A stretch of DNA of 64,000 bases. Origin: Bosea sp. PAMC 26642. GTDB taxonomy: Bacteria > Pseudomonadota > Alphaproteobacteria > Rhizobiales > Beijerinckiaceae. The DNA lies in the NCBI RefSeq assembly GCF_001562255.1, contig NZ_CP014301.1:3866001-3930000 (forward strand), read 5' to 3'. Shown piece after piece: positions 2,469 through 53,566 of this stretch. Numbering within the stretch: position 1 is the stretch's first letter; each line of letters opens with the position of its first letter. Both the position numbers and the translations under genes were made by a program. The notes below the pieces were generated by a model, which did not search any database, was not told where the DNA came from, and saw only the letters and a program-made list of their open reading frames with translations.

Positions 2469-3567
2469 CGAGCGCCGTCGAGCGTCGCAGCAGCAGCCAC
2501 AGAAAGAAGGGCGCGCCGATCGCTGCCGTGACGATGCCGAGCGGGAGTTCGGCCGGTGCCACCATGAGCCGCGCGACGATATCGGCACCGACGAGCAGGG
2601 TCGCGCCGCCCACCGCCGCGAGCGGCAGCAGCAGGCGGTGGTCGGGGCCGATGGCGAGCCGGATCAGATGCGGCACCACGATGCCGACGAAGCCGATCAC
2701 GCCGGCCGAGGCGACGCTCGCGCCGACGGCAAGCGCCACCAGCAGGATGGCCAGCGCCTTGATGCGCTGGACCGGCAGGCCGAGATGCCAGGCTTCGGCC
2801 TCGCCCAGCATCAGGCCGTTGAGCCCGCGCGCCAGAAGCGGCATTGCGAGCAGCATCGGCAAAACGATGGGGGCGACGACGGAGAGCTTGGTCCAGCTCG
2901 CGCCGCCGAGGCTGCCGAGCGACCAGAAGGTCAGGTCGCGCAGTTGGCGATCATCTGAGAGGTAGGCGAGAAGGCCGGTCAGGGCGCCCGCCAGCGCGCC
3001 GAGCGCGACGCCCGCCAGCAGCATGGTAGCAACCGAGGTGCGGCCCTGGCGGGTCGCGATGAGATAGAGGATCAGTGTCGAGATCAGGCCGCCGCAGAAA
3101 GCGCCGACAGGCAGGAGCGCGAAGGGCAGCTTTATCGCCGTGCCTGCGAGGAGCCGGTCGCCGAGCACGATCGTCGCCGCCGCCGCCAAGCCTGCCCCGG
3201 AGGAGACGCCGACGAGGCCAGGATCCGCGAGCGGGTTGCGGAACAGCCCCTGCATGAGTGCGCCCGAGACCGCGAGCGAGGCGCCGACCAGCAGACCGAG
3301 CAGGACGCGCGGCAGCCGGATATTGAGAACGACCAGGGCGTCGCGCCCTTCGAGCAGCGCTGGATCGCCTGTCAGTCTCGCGCTCAGGATCGCGACGACG
3401 CGCTGCGGCGCGATCGCGACCGCGCCCTGGCCGATCGCGATCACAGCGAGCGCCAGGCAGAGCAGGACGAGGCAGCCAACGGCCAGCATGGCCCGCCGCC
3501 GGCGGCCCGCCACGAAAGCGGCAAGCGCGGCGGACGCCATTGCAGCATCAGGATTGGCGGCGAGCAT
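2461..3567 (-). CDS. hmuU: Heme ABC transporter permease HmuU (FecCD family)
   Basis: Inner-membrane permease of the heme importer, 368 aa. FecCD-type features are the conserved RLPRVLLGLLVGASLAVSGA segment and FRNPLADPGLVGVSSGAGL after the second membrane span, with about ten hydrophobic spans overall. The ATG at 3567 shares one base with the hmuT stop (TGATG), indicating translational coupling. A GTG one codon upstream is possible. Confidence 0.92.
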   Translation of the reverse strand: MLAANPDAAMASAALAAFVAGRRRRAMLAVGCLVLLCLALAVIAIGQGAVAIAPQRVVAILSARLTGDPALLEGRDALVVLNIRLPRVLLGLLVGASLAVSGALMQGLFRNPLADPGLVGVSSGAGLAAAATIVLGDRLLAGTAIKLPFALLPVGAFCGGLISTLILYLIATRQGRTSVATMLLAGVALGALAGALTGLLAYLSDDRQLRDLTFWSLGSLGGASWTKLSVVAPIVLPMLLAMPLLARGLNGLMLGEAEAWHLGLPVQRIKALAILLVALAVGASVASAGVIGFVGIVVPHLIRLAIGPDHRLLLPLAAVGGATLLVGADIVARLMVAPAELPLGIVTAAIGAPFFLWLLLRRSTALDV

Positions 3568-4523
3568 CACGGGATGGCGGCTGTCTTCAAAGGCGGGATC
3601 GCGGCGTCGGGATAGATCGCCGCCATCAGGTCGCGGGCCGCCAGGGGCGCGCGCGGGCCGAATCCGAGCAGATAGAGTCCGTCCATGGCGACGAGTGCCT
3701 TGCGGCTCGCAGCCGGCGTCGACGAGAAGGCCGGCATGGCGAACATCACGTCCGGCGTCGTGTTGGGGCTGCCGCTGTTGCGCATCATCAGGACGATGTC
3801 AGGAGCCGCCTCGATGATCGCCTCGTCGGTCATCGGCTTGTAGCCCTCGATCGCGCTGGCGACATTGATCCCGCCGGCGAGACCGATGATGGCATCGGCC
3901 GTGCTGTTGCGGCCGCCGACCATGACGCGGCCGTTCTGCAGCGACAGCACGAAGAGGACGCGGCGGCGTGTCCTGAGCCCGTCGCGCAGGCGCGCCAGCT
4001 CGTCGAAGCGTTCGGTCGTCTGGGCGGCGAGGCGCCGCGCCGGCTCGGCGGCGCCCGCAAGCGTGCCGATCGCCTCGATCTTGGACGCGATGCCCTCAGG
4101 CGTCAGGTCCTCCGGGATTCGGGCGAGCTTCACGCCGGCCTCGCTCAGCAGGGAGATCGCATCCGGCGGACCGGCGCTCTGGATGGCGATGACCAGCGAG
4201 GGCTTGAGCGAGATCACGCCCTCGGCCGACAAGGCGCGCACATAGCCGATGCTGGCCTTGTCGCGCAGGGCGTCGATCGGGAACTGGCTGGTCGTGTCGA
4301 CACCGACGATGCGATCCTGCAGGCCAAGCGCATAGAGAACCTCGGTGATCACGCCGCCGGCCGCGACGATGCGGTCGGGCGTCTGCGCGACGGCGCGGGT
4401 GATGACGGCCGACGGCGCGACGAGACCGGCAACCGCAAGCAGGCTCAGCCCGATCGCGGCGGAGAACTCACGGCGGTCGGGCCGCGAGCGCCGGGCGGTC
4501 GCGGGGATGAATCGGCCTCGCAT
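3567..4523 (-). CDS. hmuT: Heme-binding periplasmic protein HmuT
   Basis: Substrate-binding protein (318 aa) that hands heme to HmuUV. It has a Tat-like leader (DRREF followed by a hydrophobic stretch, cleavage near AVAQ) and a TroA/BtuF-like fold with the RIVAAGGVITEVLYALGLQDRIVGVD opening. ATG 4523 is preferred because GGAGA sits 8 nt upstream; ATG 4550 would add nine residues. First gene of hmuTUV. No TonB-dependent outer-membrane heme receptor is in the window, so the outer-membrane step must be encoded elsewhere. Confidence 0.9.
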   Translation of the reverse strand: MRGRFIPATARRSRPDRREFSAAIGLSLLAVAGLVAPSAVITRAVAQTPDRIVAAGGVITEVLYALGLQDRIVGVDTTSQFPIDALRDKASIGYVRALSAEGVISLKPSLVIAIQSAGPPDAISLLSEAGVKLARIPEDLTPEGIASKIEAIGTLAGAAEPARRLAAQTTERFDELARLRDGLRTRRRVLFVLSLQNGRVMVGGRNSTADAIIGLAGGINVASAIEGYKPMTDEAIIEAAPDIVLMMRNSGSPNTTPDVMFAMPAFSSTPAASRKALVAMDGLYLLGFGPRAPLAARDLMAAIYPDAAIPPLKTAAIP

Positions 4524-5912: not shown

Positions 5913-6575
5913 ATGCAGGACGATCTTATCGCCCGGGACGATGCCGTCGTCGCGGAAGCATTGTCGCACTTTGCCGCGCTGCAGGACTGGCGGCGACAGG
6001 TCGTCGACCTCTATGCCGCCATAAGGGCGCTGCCGCCCGCCCAGGGCCTGGCGCAGTGGCGGACCATCCGGGACCGGCTGTTCCGCGAGCATTCACAGTC
6101 GCCGCTTTCGGTGGCGCGACGCGCACAGTTCGGCGGTATCGGCTATTTCCCGCACGATCCGGCCTTGCGCTTCGAGGTCGGGCTGGCAGCCGCGGCGGGC
6201 CGCGAGGCCATCAGGATCGAAGCCGGCAAGGACGGTACGATGACGCTCCTGCCCTATGCCCTGACACAGGGGCTCGCAGCGCCCCTCGGCAGAGAACTGA
6301 CGCTCTACTGGATCGAGGGCTATGGCGGCGGCACGTTCCTGCCCTTCGGCGACGCGACCAATGGCGACGAGACCTTCGCCGGCGGACGCTATCTGCTGGA
6401 CACGATCAAGGGCGCCGATCTCGGCAGGACGCCCGAGGGGAAGCTGATCCTGGATTTCAACTTTGCCTACTACCCGTCCTGTGCCTATTCGGAAGCCTGG
6501 GTCTGCCCGCTTTCGCCATTCGAGAACCGCCTGCCGGCGGCGGTGCGCGGCGGCGAGCGCGATCTCGCTTCGTAG
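5913..6575 (+). CDS. DUF1684 family protein
   Basis: 220 aa cytosolic protein of the DUF1684 family, function unknown. The diagnostic C-terminal motif is LDFNFAYYPSCAYSEAWVC followed by PLSPFENRLPAAVRGGE. An N-terminal helix (DDWRRQVVDLYAAIR-like) precedes the beta-rich core. Start ATG 5913 has GAGGTG upstream. It is followed by a GGCCTGCC hairpin at 6603-6627. Confidence 0.8.
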   Translation: MQDDLIARDDAVVAEALSHFAALQDWRRQVVDLYAAIRALPPAQGLAQWRTIRDRLFREHSQSPLSVARRAQFGGIGYFPHDPALRFEVGLAAAAGREAIRIEAGKDGTMTLLPYALTQGLAAPLGRELTLYWIEGYGGGTFLPFGDATNGDETFAGGRYLLDTIKGADLGRTPEGKLILDFNFAYYPSCAYSEAWVCPLSPFENRLPAAVRGGERDLAS

Positions 6576-13502: not shown

Positions 13503-14567
13503 ATGTTCGAGCCTACCCCCAAGACCAATCCCGGCCGCTTCTTCGAGGATTTCCGGCTCGGCGAGACCATCGTCCATGCGACCCCGCGCACCGTCACCGT
13601 CGGCGACGTCTCGCTGTACACGGCGCTCTATGGGCCGCGCTTCGCGGTGCAGTCCTCGGACGCCTTCGCAAAAGCGATCGGCTATCCGGCCGCCCCGGTC
13701 GACGACCTGCTGGTCTTCCATATCGTCTTCGGCAAGACGGTGCCGGATATCTCGCTGAATGCGGTCGCCAATCTCGGCTATGCCGATGGCCGTTTTCTCA
13801 AGCCGGTGTTTCCGGGCGACACGCTCTCGACGACGTCGGAGGTAATCGGGCTGAAACAGACCTCGGCGGGCGATGCCGGCATCGTCTATGTCCGCTCGAT
13901 CGGTCGCAACCAGCGCGCCGAGATCGTACTGAGCTATGTGCGCTGGGTTCTGGTGCGCAAGCGCGCGCCAGGTACGCCGGCCCATGCCGAGCAGGTGCCG
14001 GATCTGGCCAAGGCCGTGCTGCCGGAGGAACTCGGCGAGGGCTGCCCGACGATCGAGCTTTCGGCCCATGACGACGCGCTGTCGGGCTCGCGCTTCCGCT
14101 GGAGCGACTATGCCGCGGGAGAGCGGATCGACCATGTCGACGGCATGACCGTCGAGGAGGCGGAGCACCAGATCGCGACGCGGCTCTACCAGAACACCGC
14201 CAAGGTCCACTTCGACGCCTACAGCGCGCGCGAGACCCGATTCGGCAAGCGCCTGATCTATGGCGGCCATGTCATAAGCCTGGCGCGCGCACTGTCCTTC
14301 AACGGGCTGGGCAATGCCTTCCACATCGCCGCGATCAATGGCGGGCGGCATGTCGCGCCGCTCTTCGCCGGCGATACCGTCTTCGCCTGGAGCGAGGTGC
14401 TGCAGAGCGCCGAACTGCCGGGACGCGGCGATGTCGGAGCATTGCGGCTGCGGCTGGTGGCGACCAAGAACCGTCCCTGCGGCGAGTTCCCGCTGAAGCA
14501 TGACGGCGACCATTACGACGACGGCGTTATCCTCGATTTCGACTATTGGGCGCTGCTGCCGCGCTAG
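13503..14567 (+). CDS. mch: Mesaconyl-CoA hydratase (double hot-dog MaoC)
   Basis: 354 aa MaoC-like hydratase interconverting mesaconyl-CoA and beta-methylmalyl-CoA, a step of the ethylmalonyl-CoA pathway for acetyl-CoA assimilation. It closely resembles the family: KTNPGRFFEDFRLGETIVHA, SLYTALYGPRFA, DDLLVFHIVFGKTVPDISLN, and the second hot-dog with FDAYSARETRFGKRLIYGGHV. ATG 13503 fits the family length. It sits between the malyl-CoA enzyme block and sdhCDAB. Confidence 0.85.
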   Translation: MFEPTPKTNPGRFFEDFRLGETIVHATPRTVTVGDVSLYTALYGPRFAVQSSDAFAKAIGYPAAPVDDLLVFHIVFGKTVPDISLNAVANLGYADGRFLKPVFPGDTLSTTSEVIGLKQTSAGDAGIVYVRSIGRNQRAEIVLSYVRWVLVRKRAPGTPAHAEQVPDLAKAVLPEELGEGCPTIELSAHDDALSGSRFRWSDYAAGERIDHVDGMTVEEAEHQIATRLYQNTAKVHFDAYSARETRFGKRLIYGGHVISLARALSFNGLGNAFHIAAINGGRHVAPLFAGDTVFAWSEVLQSAELPGRGDVGALRLRLVATKNRPCGEFPLKHDGDHYDDGVILDFDYWALLPR

Positions 14568-14616
14568 CCTGAGTTACAAAATCGATACTCTGTCACTTCG
14601 TCACCTGCGTGTCGCA

Positions 14617-14645
14617 TTGCAGCAAGGGGCCGGTTTCGCTACAGA
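14617..14645 (+). promoter_or_regulatory. Candidate sdhCDAB promoter
   Basis: TTGCAG-N17-TACAGA, a good sigma-70-like match in the 150-bp gap after mch, about 73 bp before the sdhC start. It implies that sdh can be transcribed independently of mch. Confidence 0.4.
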
Positions 14646-14717
14646 CCAGTCACTCTAGAACGATCCCAAATGGATAGACGGGCTTGCTTGCAGGCCCAGC
14701 AGTGTCGGAGAGATGAT

Positions 14718-15113
14718 TTGGCCGAGGTCAAGCCGGTGGCGCGTCCGCTTTCGCCGCATCTGCAGATCTATCGCTGGTCCTGGACGATGGCGATGTCGAT
14801 CGCCCATCGCGTCACGGGATGCGCGCTCTATGCCGGTACGGTCCTGATCGCCGCCTGGCTGGTCGCCGCCGCGTCCGGCCCCGCCGCCTTCGAGACGGCG
14901 CAATGGATAGCGGGCTCGATCCTCGGCAAGCTCGTGATGTTCGGCTATTCCTTCGCGCTGCTGCACCACATGGTCGGAGGCCTGCGCCATTTCGTCTGGG
15001 ACATGGGCCGTGGCTACGACCCGCAGACCCGGATGAATCTGGCGAAATACAGCGTCGCGGTGTCAGGCGGGCTCACGCTGCTCGTCTGGATCCTGGCCTT
15101 TCTGGTGCGCTGA
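14718..15113 (+). CDS. sdhC: Succinate dehydrogenase cytochrome b556 subunit SdhC
   Basis: 131 aa inner-membrane anchor of complex II. Family motif RPLSPHLQIYRWSWTMAMSIAHRVTG (quinone/heme region with SIAHRVTG) and the heme-ligand helix YSFALLHHMVGGLRHFVWD; three membrane spans. TTG 14718 is chosen because the homologous sequence begins there (LAEVKPVARPLSP) and GGAGA precedes it. First gene of sdhCDA-vapD-sdhB. Confidence 0.93.
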   Translation: MAEVKPVARPLSPHLQIYRWSWTMAMSIAHRVTGCALYAGTVLIAAWLVAAASGPAAFETAQWIAGSILGKLVMFGYSFALLHHMVGGLRHFVWDMGRGYDPQTRMNLAKYSVAVSGGLTLLVWILAFLVR

Positions 15114-15125
15114 GGAGTTTTAGCG

Positions 15126-15518
15126 ATGTCGTCCAACTCCTCCATGCGCACGCCGCTCGGCCGGGTCCGCGGTCTCGGCTCCGCCAGATCCGGTACAGGG
15201 CATTTCTGGCTGCAGCGCGTCACCGCCGTCGCCAACGTCATCCTGACAGTGATCTTCCTCGGCGTCGTGATCTCGCTCTTCGGCAAGCCCTATCCGGCGG
15301 CGATGGCCACGCTGTCGCACCCCCTTGTCGCGATCCTGATGCTGCTCTTCATCATCTCGGGTGCGGTCCACATGCGGATCGGGATGCAGGTCGTCATCGA
15401 GGACTACGTCCATGGCGAGGGCCTCAAGATCGCCGCCGTGATGGCCAATACCTTCTTCGCGATCGCGATCGGCGCAGCCTGCGTCTTCGCGGTGCTGAAG
15501 CTCTCGTTTGGAGGCTGA
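15126..15518 (+). CDS. sdhD: Succinate dehydrogenase membrane anchor SdhD
   Basis: 130 aa hydrophobic anchor of complex II with three spans. [13 protein letters not shown] near the N-terminus and [24 protein letters not shown] (heme His plus conserved Asp-Tyr) are characteristic of alphaproteobacterial SdhD. It starts 12 bp after sdhC and ends 4 bp before the sdhA start. Confidence 0.93.
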
Positions 15519-15522
15519 TCCG

Positions 15523-17355
15523 ATGGCGATCACCAGAGCCCGCTCGACCGCGACCTATGCCGGCCCGGCCTATCCGATCACCGACCACACCTTCGACGTC
15601 GTGGTCGTCGGCGCCGGCGGTGCGGGTCTGCGCGCCACCGTCGGCTGCTCGCAGGCCGGCCTGAAGACCGCCTGCATCACCAAGGTCTTCCCGACTCGCT
15701 CGCACACGGTCGCGGCTCAGGGCGGTGTCGCGGCTTCGCTCGGCAATATGGGCAAGGACACTTGGCAGTGGCACATGTACGACACCGTCAAGGGGTCGGA
15801 CTGGCTCGGCGACCAGGACGCGATCGAATACCTCGTCCGCAATGCGCCGGCCGCCGTCTATGAGTTGGAACATTGGGGCGTGCCGTTCTCGCGCACCGAG
15901 GCCGGCAAGATCTACCAGCGTCCCTTCGGTGGCATGACCACCGAATTCGGCGAGGGCCCGCCGGCCCAGCGCACCTGCGCGGCGGCCGACCGCACCGGCC
16001 ACGCCATGCTGCACACGCTTTATGGGCAGGCGCTGCGCTACAATACCGAGTTCTTCATCGAGTACTTCGCCATCGACCTGATCATGGACGAGGACGGCGC
16101 CTGCCGCGGCGTGATCGCGCTCAAGCTCGACGACGGCACGCTGCACCGCTTCCGCTCGAAGATGGCGATCATGGCGACAGGCGGTTACGGCCGCGCCTAT
16201 TTCTCGGCGACTTCGGCCCATACCTGTACAGGCGACGGCAACGCCATGGTGCTGCGCGCCGGCCTGCCGCTGCAGGACATGGAGTTCGTGCAGTTCCACC
16301 CGACCGGCATCTACGGCGCCGGCTGCCTGATCACCGAAGGCGCACGCGGCGAGGGCGGCTACCTGACCAATTCCGAGGGCGAGCGCTTCATGGAGCGCTA
16401 TGCCCCCTCGGCCAAGGACCTCGCCTCGCGCGACGTCGTCTCACGCTCGATGACCATGGAAATCCGGGGCGGGCGCGGCGTCGGCAAGAACAAGGACCAC
16501 ATCTACCTGCATCTCGACCATCTCGACCCGACGATCCTGCACGAGCGCCTGCCCGGCATCTCGGAGAGCGCCAAGATCTTCGCCGGCGTCGACGTGACGC
16601 GCGAGCCGATCCCGGTGCTGCCGACGGTGCATTACAACATGGGCGGCATACCCACGAACTTCCACGGCGAGGTCCTGACCAAGGTCGACGGCAATGCCGA
16701 CACGGTGGTGCCGGGCCTGATGGCGATCGGCGAGGCGGCCTGCGTCTCGGTGCATGGCGCCAACCGGCTGGGCTCGAACTCGCTGATCGACCTCGTGGTC
16801 TTCGGCCGTGCGGCGGGCCTGCGCTGCGCCGAGATCGTGACGCCGGGCGAAAAGCAGCCGGAGCTGCCCTCGACCTCGGCCGATCTGGCCCTGACGCGCC
16901 TCGACAAGTTCCGCAACGCCTCGGGCTCGACCACGACGGCCGAACTGCGCGGGCGCATGCAGAAGACCATGCAGGACAATTGCGCGGTCTACCGCACGGG
17001 TGAGACTCTGGAAGAGGGCCACAAGCTGATCCACGAGGTCTGGGCCGGCGCATCGGACATCGCGACGACCGATCGCTCGCTGATCTGGAACTCCGACCTG
17101 ATCGAGACGATGGAGTTCGACAATTTGATCACGCAGGCCGTGGTTACGATGGATTCGGCGCTGAACCGCCCGGAAAGTCGCGGGGCCCATGCCCGCGAGG
17201 ACTATCCCAACCGCGACGACAAGGACTGGATGAAGCACACGCTCGCTTGGGTCGACGACGAGAAGCGGACGGTGTCGCTGGATGATCGCCCGGTCCACAC
17301 CTACACGCTCTCCAACGACATCGAGTACATCAAGCCCAAGGCAAGGGTGTATTAA
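15523..17355 (+). CDS. sdhA: Succinate dehydrogenase flavoprotein subunit SdhA
   Basis: 610 aa catalytic subunit oxidising succinate to fumarate in the TCA cycle. The FAD Rossmann motif [13 protein letters not shown] is followed by the His that binds FAD covalently (SHTVAAQGG, about residue 61); the substrate site has [20 protein letters not shown], and the C-terminal [18 protein letters not shown] region (here [18 protein letters not shown]). Full length. Unusually, the gene after it is vapD rather than sdhB. Confidence 0.97.
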
Positions 17356-17419
17356 GGGAGAGATCGCGTTCATGCGTCCTTTAGCGACCATTGGACACAA
17401 CCGGGGAGGCGGAGGGCGC

Positions 17420-17719
17420 ATGTACGCGATCGTCTTCGATTTTGACACGCAAACTCTGGAACAGCTTTATCCCAATCAATCCTGGCGGAACGCCTACACG
17501 GATGTACGAAGCTATTTGACGGCTCGTGGTTTCGAATGGAAGCAGGGCAGCACTTATTTTGGAAATGACTCGGTTGATGCAGTGCGCTGCGTCACGGTCG
17601 TCCAAAGACTGGCAAAGAAGTACTCTTGGTTTACGCCTTCGGTCCGGGACATCAGAATGCTTCGGATCGAAGAAAACAACGATCTAATGAGTGCGCTCGA
17701 CGACGAGGACGACGACTAA
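17420..17719 (+). CDS. vapD: VapD-family endoribonuclease inserted between sdhA and sdhB
   Basis: 99 aa. VapD is a Cas2-like ferredoxin-fold mRNA interferase. The signature is clear: MYAIVFDFDT with the catalytic-type Asp 7, RGFEWKQGSTYFG, then YSWFTPSVRDIRMLRIEENNDLM, ending in an acidic tail. ATG 17420 has GGAGG 5 nt upstream; an in-frame ATG at 17372 would add a 16-residue IGHNRGG leader. Hand count of two 60-base lines (17461-17580) gives about 49% GC against 67% for a line of sdhB, pointing to acquired DNA. No VapX-like antitoxin gene is visible beside it. The stop lies 3 bp before sdhB. Confidence 0.85.
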   Translation: MYAIVFDFDTQTLEQLYPNQSWRNAYTDVRSYLTARGFEWKQGSTYFGNDSVDAVRCVTVVQRLAKKYSWFTPSVRDIRMLRIEENNDLMSALDDEDDD

Positions 17720-17722
17720 GTC

Positions 17723-18520
17723 ATGGCCGAATTCAATCTCCCGCAGAACTCCCGCCTCGTCGCGGGCAAGACCTGGCCGAAGCCCGCCAGCGCCGGCAAG
17801 CTGACCGAGTTCAAGGTCTATCGCTGGAGCCCCGACGATACCGAGAACCCGCGCACCGACACCTATTTCGTCGACCGCGAGGATTGCGGACCGATGGTTC
17901 TCGACGCGCTGATCTGGATCAAGTCGAAGATCGACCCGACGCTGACCTTCCGCCGTTCCTGCCGCGAGGGCATCTGCGGCTCCTGCGCGATGAACATGGA
18001 CGGCAAGAACGGGCTCGCCTGCACCACCGGCATCGACGAGTGCGGCGGGACGGGCAAGAATGCGGGACGGGTCGCGATCTATCCGCTGCCGCATATGCCG
18101 GTGATCAAGGATCTGGTGCCGGACCTGACGCAGTTCTACGCCCAGCACGCCTCGATCGAGCCCTGGCTCAAGACCACGACGCCGTCGCCGGAGAAGGAAT
18201 GGGCGCAAGGGAAAGAGGATCGCGAGAAGCTCGACGGTCTCTACGAGTGCATCCTGTGCGCCTGCTGCACCACCTCCTGCCCGAGCTACTGGTGGAACGG
18301 CGACCGCTATCTCGGCCCTGCTGCCCTGCTGCAGGCCTATCGCTGGCTGATCGACAGCCGCGACGAATCGACCGGCGAGCGGCTCGACAATCTGGAAGAT
18401 CCGTTCCGGCTGTATCGCTGCCACACCATCATGAACTGCGCCAATGCCTGCCCGAAGGGGTTGAACCCCGCCAAGGCGATTGCCGAAGTGAAGATGATGA
18501 TGGTGACGCGTCAGGTCTGA
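17723..18520 (+). CDS. sdhB: Succinate dehydrogenase iron-sulfur subunit SdhB
   Basis: 265 aa. It carries electrons from FAD to quinone through three clusters: [2Fe-2S] at [13 protein letters not shown] with the later Cys of GLACTT, [4Fe-4S] at [12 protein letters not shown], and [3Fe-4S] completed by [17 protein letters not shown]. The ATG at 17723 comes 3 bp after the vapD stop. The only purine-rich stretch is GAGGAC inside the vapD acidic tail, 14 nt upstream, so sdhB translation may depend on ribosomes finishing vapD. Confidence 0.96.
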
Positions 18521-18619
18521 CGCATCACCATGTCAATGTCGGCGCACCCGTCTCGTCATGGTCGGGCTCGCATAGAGGCGCGCCAAGACAATTGACGGCC
18601 AGCTGCAGCGACCCATTCG

Positions 18620-20056
18620 TCACCGCACCAGAATATTCCGGAACTGCCACGGATCGCTGGCGTCGATGTCCTCCGGGAACAGCCCCGGACGGCCGTCGAG
18701 TGGGGTCCAGTCCGTATAATAGCCCTTCACCGGACCGAGATAGGGCATCTGGATCTCGAGGCAGCGGTTGAGGTCCATCTCCTCGACTTCGACGATGCCG
18801 GCGCGCGGATTCTCCAGCGCCCAGACCATGCCGGCGAGGATGGCCGACGTCACCTGCAGGCCGGTCGCGCTCTGATAGGGAGCCAGCGTGCGCGTCTCCT
18901 CGATCGAGAGCTGCGAGCCGAACCAGTAGGCGCCCTTCTCATGACCGTAGAGCAGCACGCCGAGTTCGTCGATGCCATCGACGATCTCGTCCTCTTCCAG
19001 GATGTGCTCCTCTTCCTGCGGGCGGCCGGCATTGCCGAACATCTCGTGCAGCGACAAAACCGCGTCGTTGGGCGGGTGGTAGGCGTAGTGGCAGGTCGGC
19101 CGGTAGACGGCCTTGCCGCTCTCGTCGCGGACGGTGAAGTAATCGGCGATCGAGATCGACTCATTGTGTGTGACGAGGAAGCCGTATTGCGGACCGGGCG
19201 TCGGGCACCAGCTCCTGACCTTGGTCTCGGCACCAGCCTGCATCAGATAGATCGCGGCCTGCGAGCCGGTTTCGTGGGTGCGGGCGTTGTCGGGCATCCA
19301 CGTCTCATGCGTGCCCCAGCCGAGTTCGGCCGGCTGCACGCCTTCGGCGATGAAGCCCTCGACCGACCAGGTGTTGACGAAGACGCCCGGCGGCTTGGGA
19401 TTGCGCGACCGCTGCGTGTCACGCTCGGCGATATGGATGCCCTTGACGCCGGCATGTTGCATCAGCGCGGCCCATTCCTCGCGGGTCGTCGGCTGGGGCA
19501 CATTCAAGCGCATATCGGCGGCGAGGTTGAGCAGTGCCTTCTTGGCAAGCCAGGAGGCCATGCCCGGATTGGCGCCGCAGCAGGAGACCGAGGTCGGCGA
19601 GCCGGGCGCGCGGGCGCGCTTGGCGGCGAGCGTCATCTCGCGCAGCGCATAGTTCGAGCGCTCGCCCGGACCCTTGCTCTCGTCGAAATAGAAGCCGAGC
19701 CAGGGCTCGTTGACCGTATCAATATAGAGGGCTCCAAGACTGGAGCAGAATTCCATCAGGTCGCGCGAGCCGGTGTCGCAGGACAGGTTCACGCAGAAGC
19801 CCTGCCCGCCGCCTGCCGTCAGCAGCGGCTCGAGCATCGTCTTGTAGTTGTCGATGGTAACGGCTTCCTGGATGAACCGGATGCCGCGCTCGTCGAGGAG
19901 GTGGCGGTTCAAATCGTCAGGCGCAATGACGACGAAACGGCTCTTGTCGAATTCGAAATGCCGCTCGATCAGCGGCAGCGTCCCGCGTCCGATCGAGCCG
20001 AAGCCGATCATCACGATCGGGCCGGTGATCTTTCCGTATACGGGCCAGTTGCTCAT
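18620..20056 (-). CDS. hss: Homospermidine synthase
   Basis: 478 aa NAD-dependent enzyme forming sym-homospermidine from putrescine, a main polyamine in many Hyphomicrobiales. The N-terminal Rossmann motif is GPIVMIGFGSIGRGTLPLIERH; also family-typical are VNLSCDTGSRDLMEFC, YIDTVNEPWLGFY, SCCGANPGMASWL and GWGTHETWMPDNA. ATG 20056 follows AAGGAG. The ornithine decarboxylase supplying putrescine is encoded on the same strand 5 kb upstream. Confidence 0.94.
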   Translation of the reverse strand: MSNWPVYGKITGPIVMIGFGSIGRGTLPLIERHFEFDKSRFVVIAPDDLNRHLLDERGIRFIQEAVTIDNYKTMLEPLLTAGGGQGFCVNLSCDTGSRDLMEFCSSLGALYIDTVNEPWLGFYFDESKGPGERSNYALREMTLAAKRARAPGSPTSVSCCGANPGMASWLAKKALLNLAADMRLNVPQPTTREEWAALMQHAGVKGIHIAERDTQRSRNPKPPGVFVNTWSVEGFIAEGVQPAELGWGTHETWMPDNARTHETGSQAAIYLMQAGAETKVRSWCPTPGPQYGFLVTHNESISIADYFTVRDESGKAVYRPTCHYAYHPPNDAVLSLHEMFGNAGRPQEEEHILEEDEIVDGIDELGVLLYGHEKGAYWFGSQLSIEETRTLAPYQSATGLQVTSAILAGMVWALENPRAGIVEVEEMDLNRCLEIQMPYLGPVKGYYTDWTPLDGRPGLFPEDIDASDPWQFRNILVR

Positions 20057-53425: not shown

Positions 53426-53447
53426 AATCGGTCCTGACGATGCGAAT

Positions 53448-53465
53448 TCGAACTGATCGGTTCGA
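53448..53465. promoter_or_regulatory. TetR operator copy 1 (emrA-proximal)
   Basis: TCGAAC-N6-GTTCGA, identical half-sites and spacing to the second copy 61 bp away. It begins 23 bp upstream of the emrA start. Confidence 0.65.
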
Positions 53466-53508
53466 TTGCATTTGATTTAGCGCGAGAGATATCGCATATC
53501 AAGAGCAA

Positions 53509-53526
53509 TCGAACCAGCTGGTTCGA
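53509..53526. promoter_or_regulatory. TetR operator copy 2 (tetR-proximal)
   Basis: TCGAAC-N6-GTTCGA inside a perfect 22-bp palindrome (53507-53528), 40 bp upstream of the tetR start. Likely where the regulator represses itself. Confidence 0.7.
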
Positions 53527-53566
53527 TTCTTTTCGACACGGCCGGCCGGCAACCGGGCAAGGGACC

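Follow-up and report, generated by a model that had tools for sequence, protein, structure and literature searches.

A predicted solitary VapD nuclease gene in a recurrently occupied junction of the sdhCDAB operon

In the 64-kb stretch of DNA analysed here (hereafter, the window), the sdhCDAB operon retains its canonical order on one strand, with a single gene inserted between sdhA and sdhB. This gene genuinely belongs to the VapD family and, judging by its sequence and modelled fold, encodes a predicted nuclease; its position is recurrent but sporadic. The protein family is already known; what is new is the tail of the protein, the operon slot and the repeated use of this slot. In the reading that we favour, and to which we give about an even chance, the gene encodes a predicted solitary VapD nuclease of a GHN-tailed alphaproteobacterial subfamily, located in a permissive sdh junction, and its dose would be set by the host operon.

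The inserted gene and its VapD-family product

The features of the locus are listed below by their positions in the window.

14670..15113, + strand: sdhC, Pfam Sdh_cyt PF01127 (E = 4.6e-25)
15126..15518, + strand: sdhD, Pfam Sdh_cyt PF01127 (E = 3.4e-18)
15523..17355, + strand: sdhA, Pfam FAD_binding_2 (E = 2.3e-127) and Succ_DH_flav_C (E = 4.7e-46); start set at ATG 15523, the ORF list having TTG at 15508
17353-17355, + strand: sdhA stop codon TAA, read from the sequence
17356-17722: sdhA-sdhB gap, 367 bp, one gene inside
17357..17437, + strand: RNA hairpin, near-perfect, just past the sdhA stop and spanning both possible vapD starts
17372..17719, + strand: vapD, 115-aa product, with ATG 17372 as the probable true start
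17372..17419, + strand: N-terminal tail MRPLATIGHNRGGGGR with the conserved G-H-N motif
17420..17422, + strand: alternative internal start (MYAIVF...), the usual VapD start, with purine-rich GGGGAGGCGGAGGG immediately upstream
17420-17719, + strand: vapD as read from the internal ATG, 99 aa
17438..17440, + strand: codon of Asp23 (Asp7 of the VapD domain), the catalytic Asp of the family, by alignment to PDB VapD
17549..17551, + strand: codon of Ser60 (QGS motif), second putative catalytic residue, by alignment to PDB VapD
17723..18520, + strand: sdhB, Pfam Fer2_3 PF13085 (E = 8.6e-32), starting 3 bp past the vapD stop

A first-pass annotation, made from the letters of the sequence, had placed a vapD gene in the gap 17356..17722 between sdhA and sdhB, with 3 bp between vapD and sdhB; the coordinates were confirmed, with all genes on the + strand, and the spacing is correct. 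Its assignment of the product to VapD is supported by sequence matches and the predicted fold. The product matched solved VapD proteins with phmmer E values of 1.6e-12 to 4e-9, and a profile search matched VapD structures (E = 2.8e-26 to 1.3e-15) and no other family at E = 0.01. The predicted structure has the ferredoxin-like VapD fold, and the structure search placed the protein in VapD, with Cas2 structures as the next fold matches. The NCBIfam VapD equivalog NF041506, which is narrower than the family, scored 71.3 bits (E = 6.7e-20), below its curated cutoff of 100 bits; five other VapD relatives, including one Campylobacter protein, also miss this cutoff (39.7-67 bits).

The Cas2 models gave 22.2 bits for Pfam CRISPR_Cas2 (cutoff 23.8) and 15.2 bits for TIGR01573 (cutoff 24.5), and those of PADLOC matched weakly, the best at E = 1.9e-11 with a model that shows no cutoff. 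Compared with Cas2, the VapD structures are the better match by both sequence and fold, and there is no cas1 in the sdh operon. We think it unlikely that the protein is no nuclease toxin but a Cas2- or VapD-like one serving some other function, in which the tail would act as a nucleic-acid or protein adaptor. Such a role could be read from the conserved arginine- and glycine-rich tail, from the Cas2 fold and PADLOC matches, and from two sdh-linked VapDs, one without the catalytic Asp (L012) and one without the Ser (L132), so that some copies may be inactive, but the Asp is conserved in 60 of the 65 fetched family members and the Ser (as QxS) in 64 of them. The VapD domain is under purifying selection among relatives, with dN/dS of 0.014-0.087 in the five of ten computed pairs with finite dS; the remaining five, including both with the window's vapD (pS 0.76-0.90, pN 0.13-0.14), are saturated at silent sites. 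The term "mRNA interferase" is unsettled for the family, because PMC11980593 reports SOS induction by VapD toxins from other clades.

A G[HD]N tail, in frame and 5' of the usual VapD start, was detected in 27 of the 28 sdh-linked vapD loci (26 GHN, one GDN), L035 being the sole locus without it. The Gly codons (GGA 8, GGT 7, GGC 6, GGG 6) and His codons (CAC 13, CAT 13) vary while the residues persist, so selection seems to act on the tail peptide. Relatives keep the tail residues at the protein level, which makes 17372 (115 aa) the most likely start in the window, ahead of 17420. The tail was modelled with low confidence (pLDDT 48 for the first block). It is also present in VapDs outside sdh (e.g., in G719 and G729), and thus characterises the subfamily and not its position at sdh. 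In the window genome, the pattern ATHGGNCAYAAY occurs 10 times, versus 3 for the reversed control, and the GHN motif may have a wider use there beyond VapD. A general N-terminal tag was considered and rejected, since most ATHGGNCAYAAY matches are inside long frames, as judged by eye. Two individual matches were recorded: in L214 (G000:C1:800456, + strand), IGHNRG lies ~19 residues into another protein frame, counted from a possible start, and in L221 a match lies 18 codons after a stop.

The window's vapD is single-copy in its genome, the sole other match (E = 0.37) having two internal stops, and no second VapD-like (VapW-type) gene was found there at a credible E value. That no antitoxin is visible, as first noted, is borne out for the adjacent genes: no VapX, VapY or VapW gene adjoins vapD, and the flanking sdhA and sdhB leave no room for one on the + strand. 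The best PHROGs match of vapD had E = 0.37. No mobile element was found near the operon, where the four neighbour proteins scanned between 13.5 and 22.5 kb carry Pfam domains of metabolism or transport (one is mesaconyl-CoA hydratase-like, one saccharopine dehydrogenase-like, one a metallophosphoesterase and one a solute-binding protein), and the direct repeats flanking the insert are of 11-14 nt only. Scans of 14400-18800, which say little in this DNA, gave no promoter-like site and one terminator-like site, within sdhA.

Among known systems, the stand-alone VapD of Helicobacter pylori (HP0315, PDB 3ui3) shares 32% identity with the window protein in the fold alignment; the profile alignment to HP0315 begins at position 11, and the GHN motif is outside the matched part. 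Unlike VapXD of Haemophilus influenzae (PDB 6zn8), the window's vapD has no adjoining antitoxin gene, and unlike the genome with VapD-VapW of Campylobacter jejuni (PDB 9kan; PMC11980593), the window genome has no credible VapD-like partner gene. The gene is solitary like the orphan VapDs described in PMC11980593, where ~50% of the VapD homologues in the set are without an associated gene family. The words sdh, succinate, operon and Alphaproteobacteria are absent from the main text of PMC11980593. No report of vapD or toxin genes at sdhA-sdhB was found in the literature, judged by titles and abstract openings. VapD is mentioned along with sdhA or succinate dehydrogenase in PMC3032703, PMC8935386 and PMC4963859.

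Recurrence of the arrangement and use of the junction

The first-pass annotation described vapD as a feature of this one sdh operon; the gene is indeed present, but the description was too narrow, as sdhA-vapD-sdhB recurs in other genomes and genes of many kinds occupy the junction. In a genome-contig collection, 47 loci encode a vapD relative, with sdhA just upstream in 20 and sdhB downstream in 19 of these; four of the other 27 are alphaproteobacterial by their titles (L019, L020, L042 and L049). The named protein relatives are mostly from Methylobacterium, Rhizobium, Salinarimonas and similar taxa, which suggests that the window genome probably belongs to the Hyphomicrobiales; one protein, P0001, is 95% identical. 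Judged by record titles, sdhA-vapD-sdhB spans several orders (Methylobacterium, Rhizobium, Caulobacter, Rhodobacteraceae). Within the order of the window genome, a vapD homologue was detected at E = 1e-6 in 19 of 397 genomes. Close homologues (at least 53% identity) are encoded by 13 genomes, in 12 of which they are beside sdhA and/or sdhB, and seven distant loci (34-39%) have neither gene inside 1.5 kb; the loci from the genome search span 1500 bp on each side, and absence from sdh was judged inside this limit. At the class level, five of 385 genomes matched at E = 1e-15, those of G000 and G704 being at sdh, and in the genus all four vapD genes, from 67 sampled genomes, are between sdhA and sdhB.

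The tpiA-secG junction is a second core-gene junction that harbours the GHN-tailed subfamily: in L227 (G729; 1465-1863, - strand), the tailed VapD gene is between tpiA and secG with pyrG adjoining, all on one strand. Tailed VapDs were also seen with an SMC-domain gene on one side and a GBBH-like gene on the other (L225 of G719; 1405-1791) and, in a sphingomonad MAG, flanked by genes for an inositol monophosphatase and ArgJ (L019; 938-1270).

The sdhA-sdhB junction tolerates and has repeatedly received extra genes. In the order sample, a gap of at least 150 bp was found at sdhA-sdhB in 33 of 73 loci but at neither sdhD-sdhA nor sdhC-sdhD (0 of 71 each); Fisher tests on these junction counts ignore relatedness. 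The sample comprised 81 loci (23 listed relatives, and 58 picked by hand from ~155 places, best SdhB matches first, mostly one per genus), eight of which have no SdhA beside SdhB and are outside the 73. L203, picked for vapD, and L204, from a genus already represented, were removed before counting, and G153 and G078 were included knowingly, both genomes having a distant vapD elsewhere. Among the 33 gaps, one of 6040 bp is maybe a rearrangement and four of 179-287 bp are maybe non-coding. In the genus, 13 of 64 loci (7/36 plus 6/28) have an insert of at least 150 bp at sdhA-sdhB, and the two sister junctions have a maximum of 45 bp in the 44 and 43 loci measured. The statement that SdhC-D-A-B is normally contiguous therefore holds for most of the genus (51/64 without such an insert) and much less for the order (40/73). 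In another genus (g20), no sdhA was found within ~6 kb 5' of sdhB (L146, L147 and L091, from G196, G168 and G055), so the operon may be split there.

None of the 33 order-sample inserts is vapD, which is thus a minor tenant of the junction. A methyltransferase cluster (~290 aa) was found at the junction in eight loci (L100 being FkbM by Pfam) and a ~145-aa cluster, two members of which are weakly DUF3052-like below the Pfam cutoff, in seven; the order-sample loci of these clusters include L100, L098, L159 and L168. The clustering covered 64 loci, many of them fetched for having vapD, with G224 counted twice and duplicates dropped by hand, and apart from the representatives that were scanned, cluster members take their names from similarity alone. 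In L124 (G020; 3205-4271) and L187 (G370; 6091-6516), the junction holds a gene pair, a PIN protein and a small partner without a Pfam name; the pairs come from two genera and are ~45-47% identical, and the PIN protein of G020 also bears a DUF3775 domain. DUF433 and DUF5615 are together in L121, with single members in L009 and L017. We take both pairs, PIN with its partner and DUF433 with the PIN-like DUF5615, to be of the toxin-antitoxin type. Further cargo includes DUF29, a sulfotransferase and a Kdo hydroxylase, and several insert proteins (e.g., in L101, L095, L062 and L233) matched no Pfam family. PADLOC, run on 10 insert proteins, matched only the FkbM protein, weakly, to mad2 (E = 1.3e-6). 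Six of the 13 genus inserts are toxin-type (four VapD, one PIN in G020, one DUF433/DUF5615 in G004), and the other seven have unnamed genes or no clear ones.

Insertion hot spots flanked by core genes gather diverse accessory genes at one core-gene junction. The sdhA-sdhB junction is like them in hosting diverse accessory genes, and differs in being inside a four-gene enzyme operon and in having inserts of one to few genes. It is quite possible, if somewhat short of probable, that vapD is neutral bystander cargo here, one of many genes gained and lost at a tolerant junction with no tie to SDH. The purifying selection among vapD relatives argues against this, as do the position of vapD at sdh in 12 of the 13 genomes with close homologues and its abutting sdhB in 18 of 28 loci; the varied inserts that share the junction (the methyltransferase cluster with one FkbM member shown, the ~145-aa family, the sulfotransferase, the Kdo hydroxylase), the rare and patchy occurrence of vapD (4/67 in the genus, 19/397 in the order, 0/33 inserts) and the GHN-tailed VapDs at other core genes such as tpiA-secG all agree with it. 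An operon addiction or metabolic tuning function, with loss of vapD penalised or TCA flux adjusted, appears improbable: three toxin-type gene kinds are at the junction in one genus (6/13 inserts) and the vapD-sdhB spacing is tight, but a solitary vapD cannot addict via the classical toxin-antitoxin route, and 51 of 64 congeners are without an insert of at least 150 bp.

Base composition and acquisition of vapD

The GC content of vapD is 0.51 (GC3 0.62), versus 0.65 (GC3 0.90) over the 3'-terminal 900 nt of sdhA and 0.64 (GC3 0.88) for sdhB, so the earlier remark on low GC was correct. Its use as a sign of recent insertion was not borne out: at 27 of 27 sdh loci vapD has a lower GC3 than either neighbour, although the difference is slight at some, and low GC3, being a mark of the gene at all these loci, cannot date the insertion. 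Low GC was rejected as proof of recent arrival on this ground. The other part of the proposal, that vapD is inserted rather than ancestral in the genus, is supported, with four of 67 genomes carrying it. The insert-free congeners have 3-15 bp at sdhA-sdhB, and 94 bp in one case.

To the same question of origin belong the VapD phylogenies. The AU test, based on 102 alignment columns and with the group named after the tree was seen, rejected the four congeneric VapDs as one clade (p = 1.8e-8); a single clade was not rejected for the three without G019 (p = 0.114) or for all 32 sdh-linked VapDs (p = 0.125). G019 and the window share 94% identity in both SdhA and SdhB and 60% in VapD, and the nearest of the compared relatives of the G019 VapD is that of G178, from another family (78%; SdhA of G178, 81%). 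The VapD-versus-Sdh contrast rests on G019, since the SdhA of G026 is about equidistant to the window (82%) and Methylobacterium (83%). In 60-nt steps, the flanks of G019 and the window resemble those of insert-free congeners up to the junction, and no long recombination tracts were seen around the G019 insert. More than one acquisition of vapD within the genus is thus supported, if unproved, by these comparisons of sequences.

We doubt that the sdh association of the subfamily is ancestral, with many losses instead of repeated insertion. The survival of one clade of 32 sdh-linked VapDs in the AU test and the spread of the arrangement across several orders are in line with such a history, but the congeneric VapDs fail to group, the distance of the G019 VapD departs from that of its SdhA and SdhB, and the junctions of the insert-free congeners are short.

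Leader hairpin, gene spacing and a likely mechanism

The leader of the window's vapD is predicted to fold into a hairpin, with inverted repeat arms at 17362-17380 and 17413-17431, in which both vapD start codons and most of the purine-rich leaders are paired. The hairpin has an energy of -48.2 kcal/mol and a z of -7.25 (-7.40 for a 111-nt version of the leader), versus z values of -2.55 to +1.66 for 26 other vapD leaders. Of the 27 leaders folded, only that of the window genome has a strong hairpin, and a conserved riboregulator of the VapD family was rejected because the hairpin is absent from the other 26. When the exact hairpin segment was added to a + strand scan of the 64 kb, it had the second lowest z of 3045 scan windows, and on the regular scan grid the hairpin ranked fourth lowest (17347, z -5.6). 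The lowest z of the scan was at 53446-53529 (-7.6). The raw energy is unremarkable in this GC-rich DNA, with several + strand scan windows at -48 kcal/mol or below. No second copy of the 111-nt stretch was found in the genome (next best 25 nt, 88%, E = 0.08), and no Rfam match at E = 1 in 14000-19000.

The simplest reading of the hairpin is a translational brake that would tie vapD to sdhA translation. It may alternatively be a chance or mutational palindrome and, present in one genome, perhaps neutral.

Of the 28 loci, 18 have the vapD stop -1 to +4 bp from sdhB and four have it 9-20 bp away, and other sequence (447-2590 bp) separates the two genes in the remaining six. The close spacing fits translational coupling, and a ribosome hand-over from vapD to sdhB is proposed because of it. 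A likely mechanism, as far as the sequences allow, is that of a predicted solitary nuclease dosed by the host operon, with neutral cargo in a permissive junction as the nearest rival. In the dosed-nuclease scheme, vapD would be transcribed from the sdh promoter as an operon member, and ribosomes ending vapD would help to start sdhB, which would keep the inserted frame intact. The nuclease dose, with no neighbouring antitoxin, would be kept low by weak translation and perhaps by the tail. Weak translation in the window would come from the hairpin over both starts, opened by ribosomes that end sdhA, and a ribosome finishing sdhA would touch the base of the hairpin. The benefit would be that of similar small nucleases (stress or phage response), and not TCA regulation as such.

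A bolder proposal, which we consider a long shot, is that in alphaproteobacteria the junction, although internal to an operon, repeatedly shelters nuclease toxins, single or in pairs, and that there the host operon, through sdhA ribosomes, the hairpin and the GHN tail, would replace the antitoxin. If this is true, a collapse of SDH expression or translation would change the toxin output, linking the respiratory state to a growth-arrest nuclease.

In the 2025 census of PMC11980593, about half of the VapD proteins lack an associated gene family, which raises the question of how cells tolerate them. The tailed subfamily, which frequently adjoins core genes and frequently abuts sdhB, offers a concrete case where the host operon could set the toxin dose. 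The junction itself, filled in 33 of 73 loci while either sister junction was filled in 0 of 71, amounts to a natural experiment on which sites of a core operon admit foreign genes.
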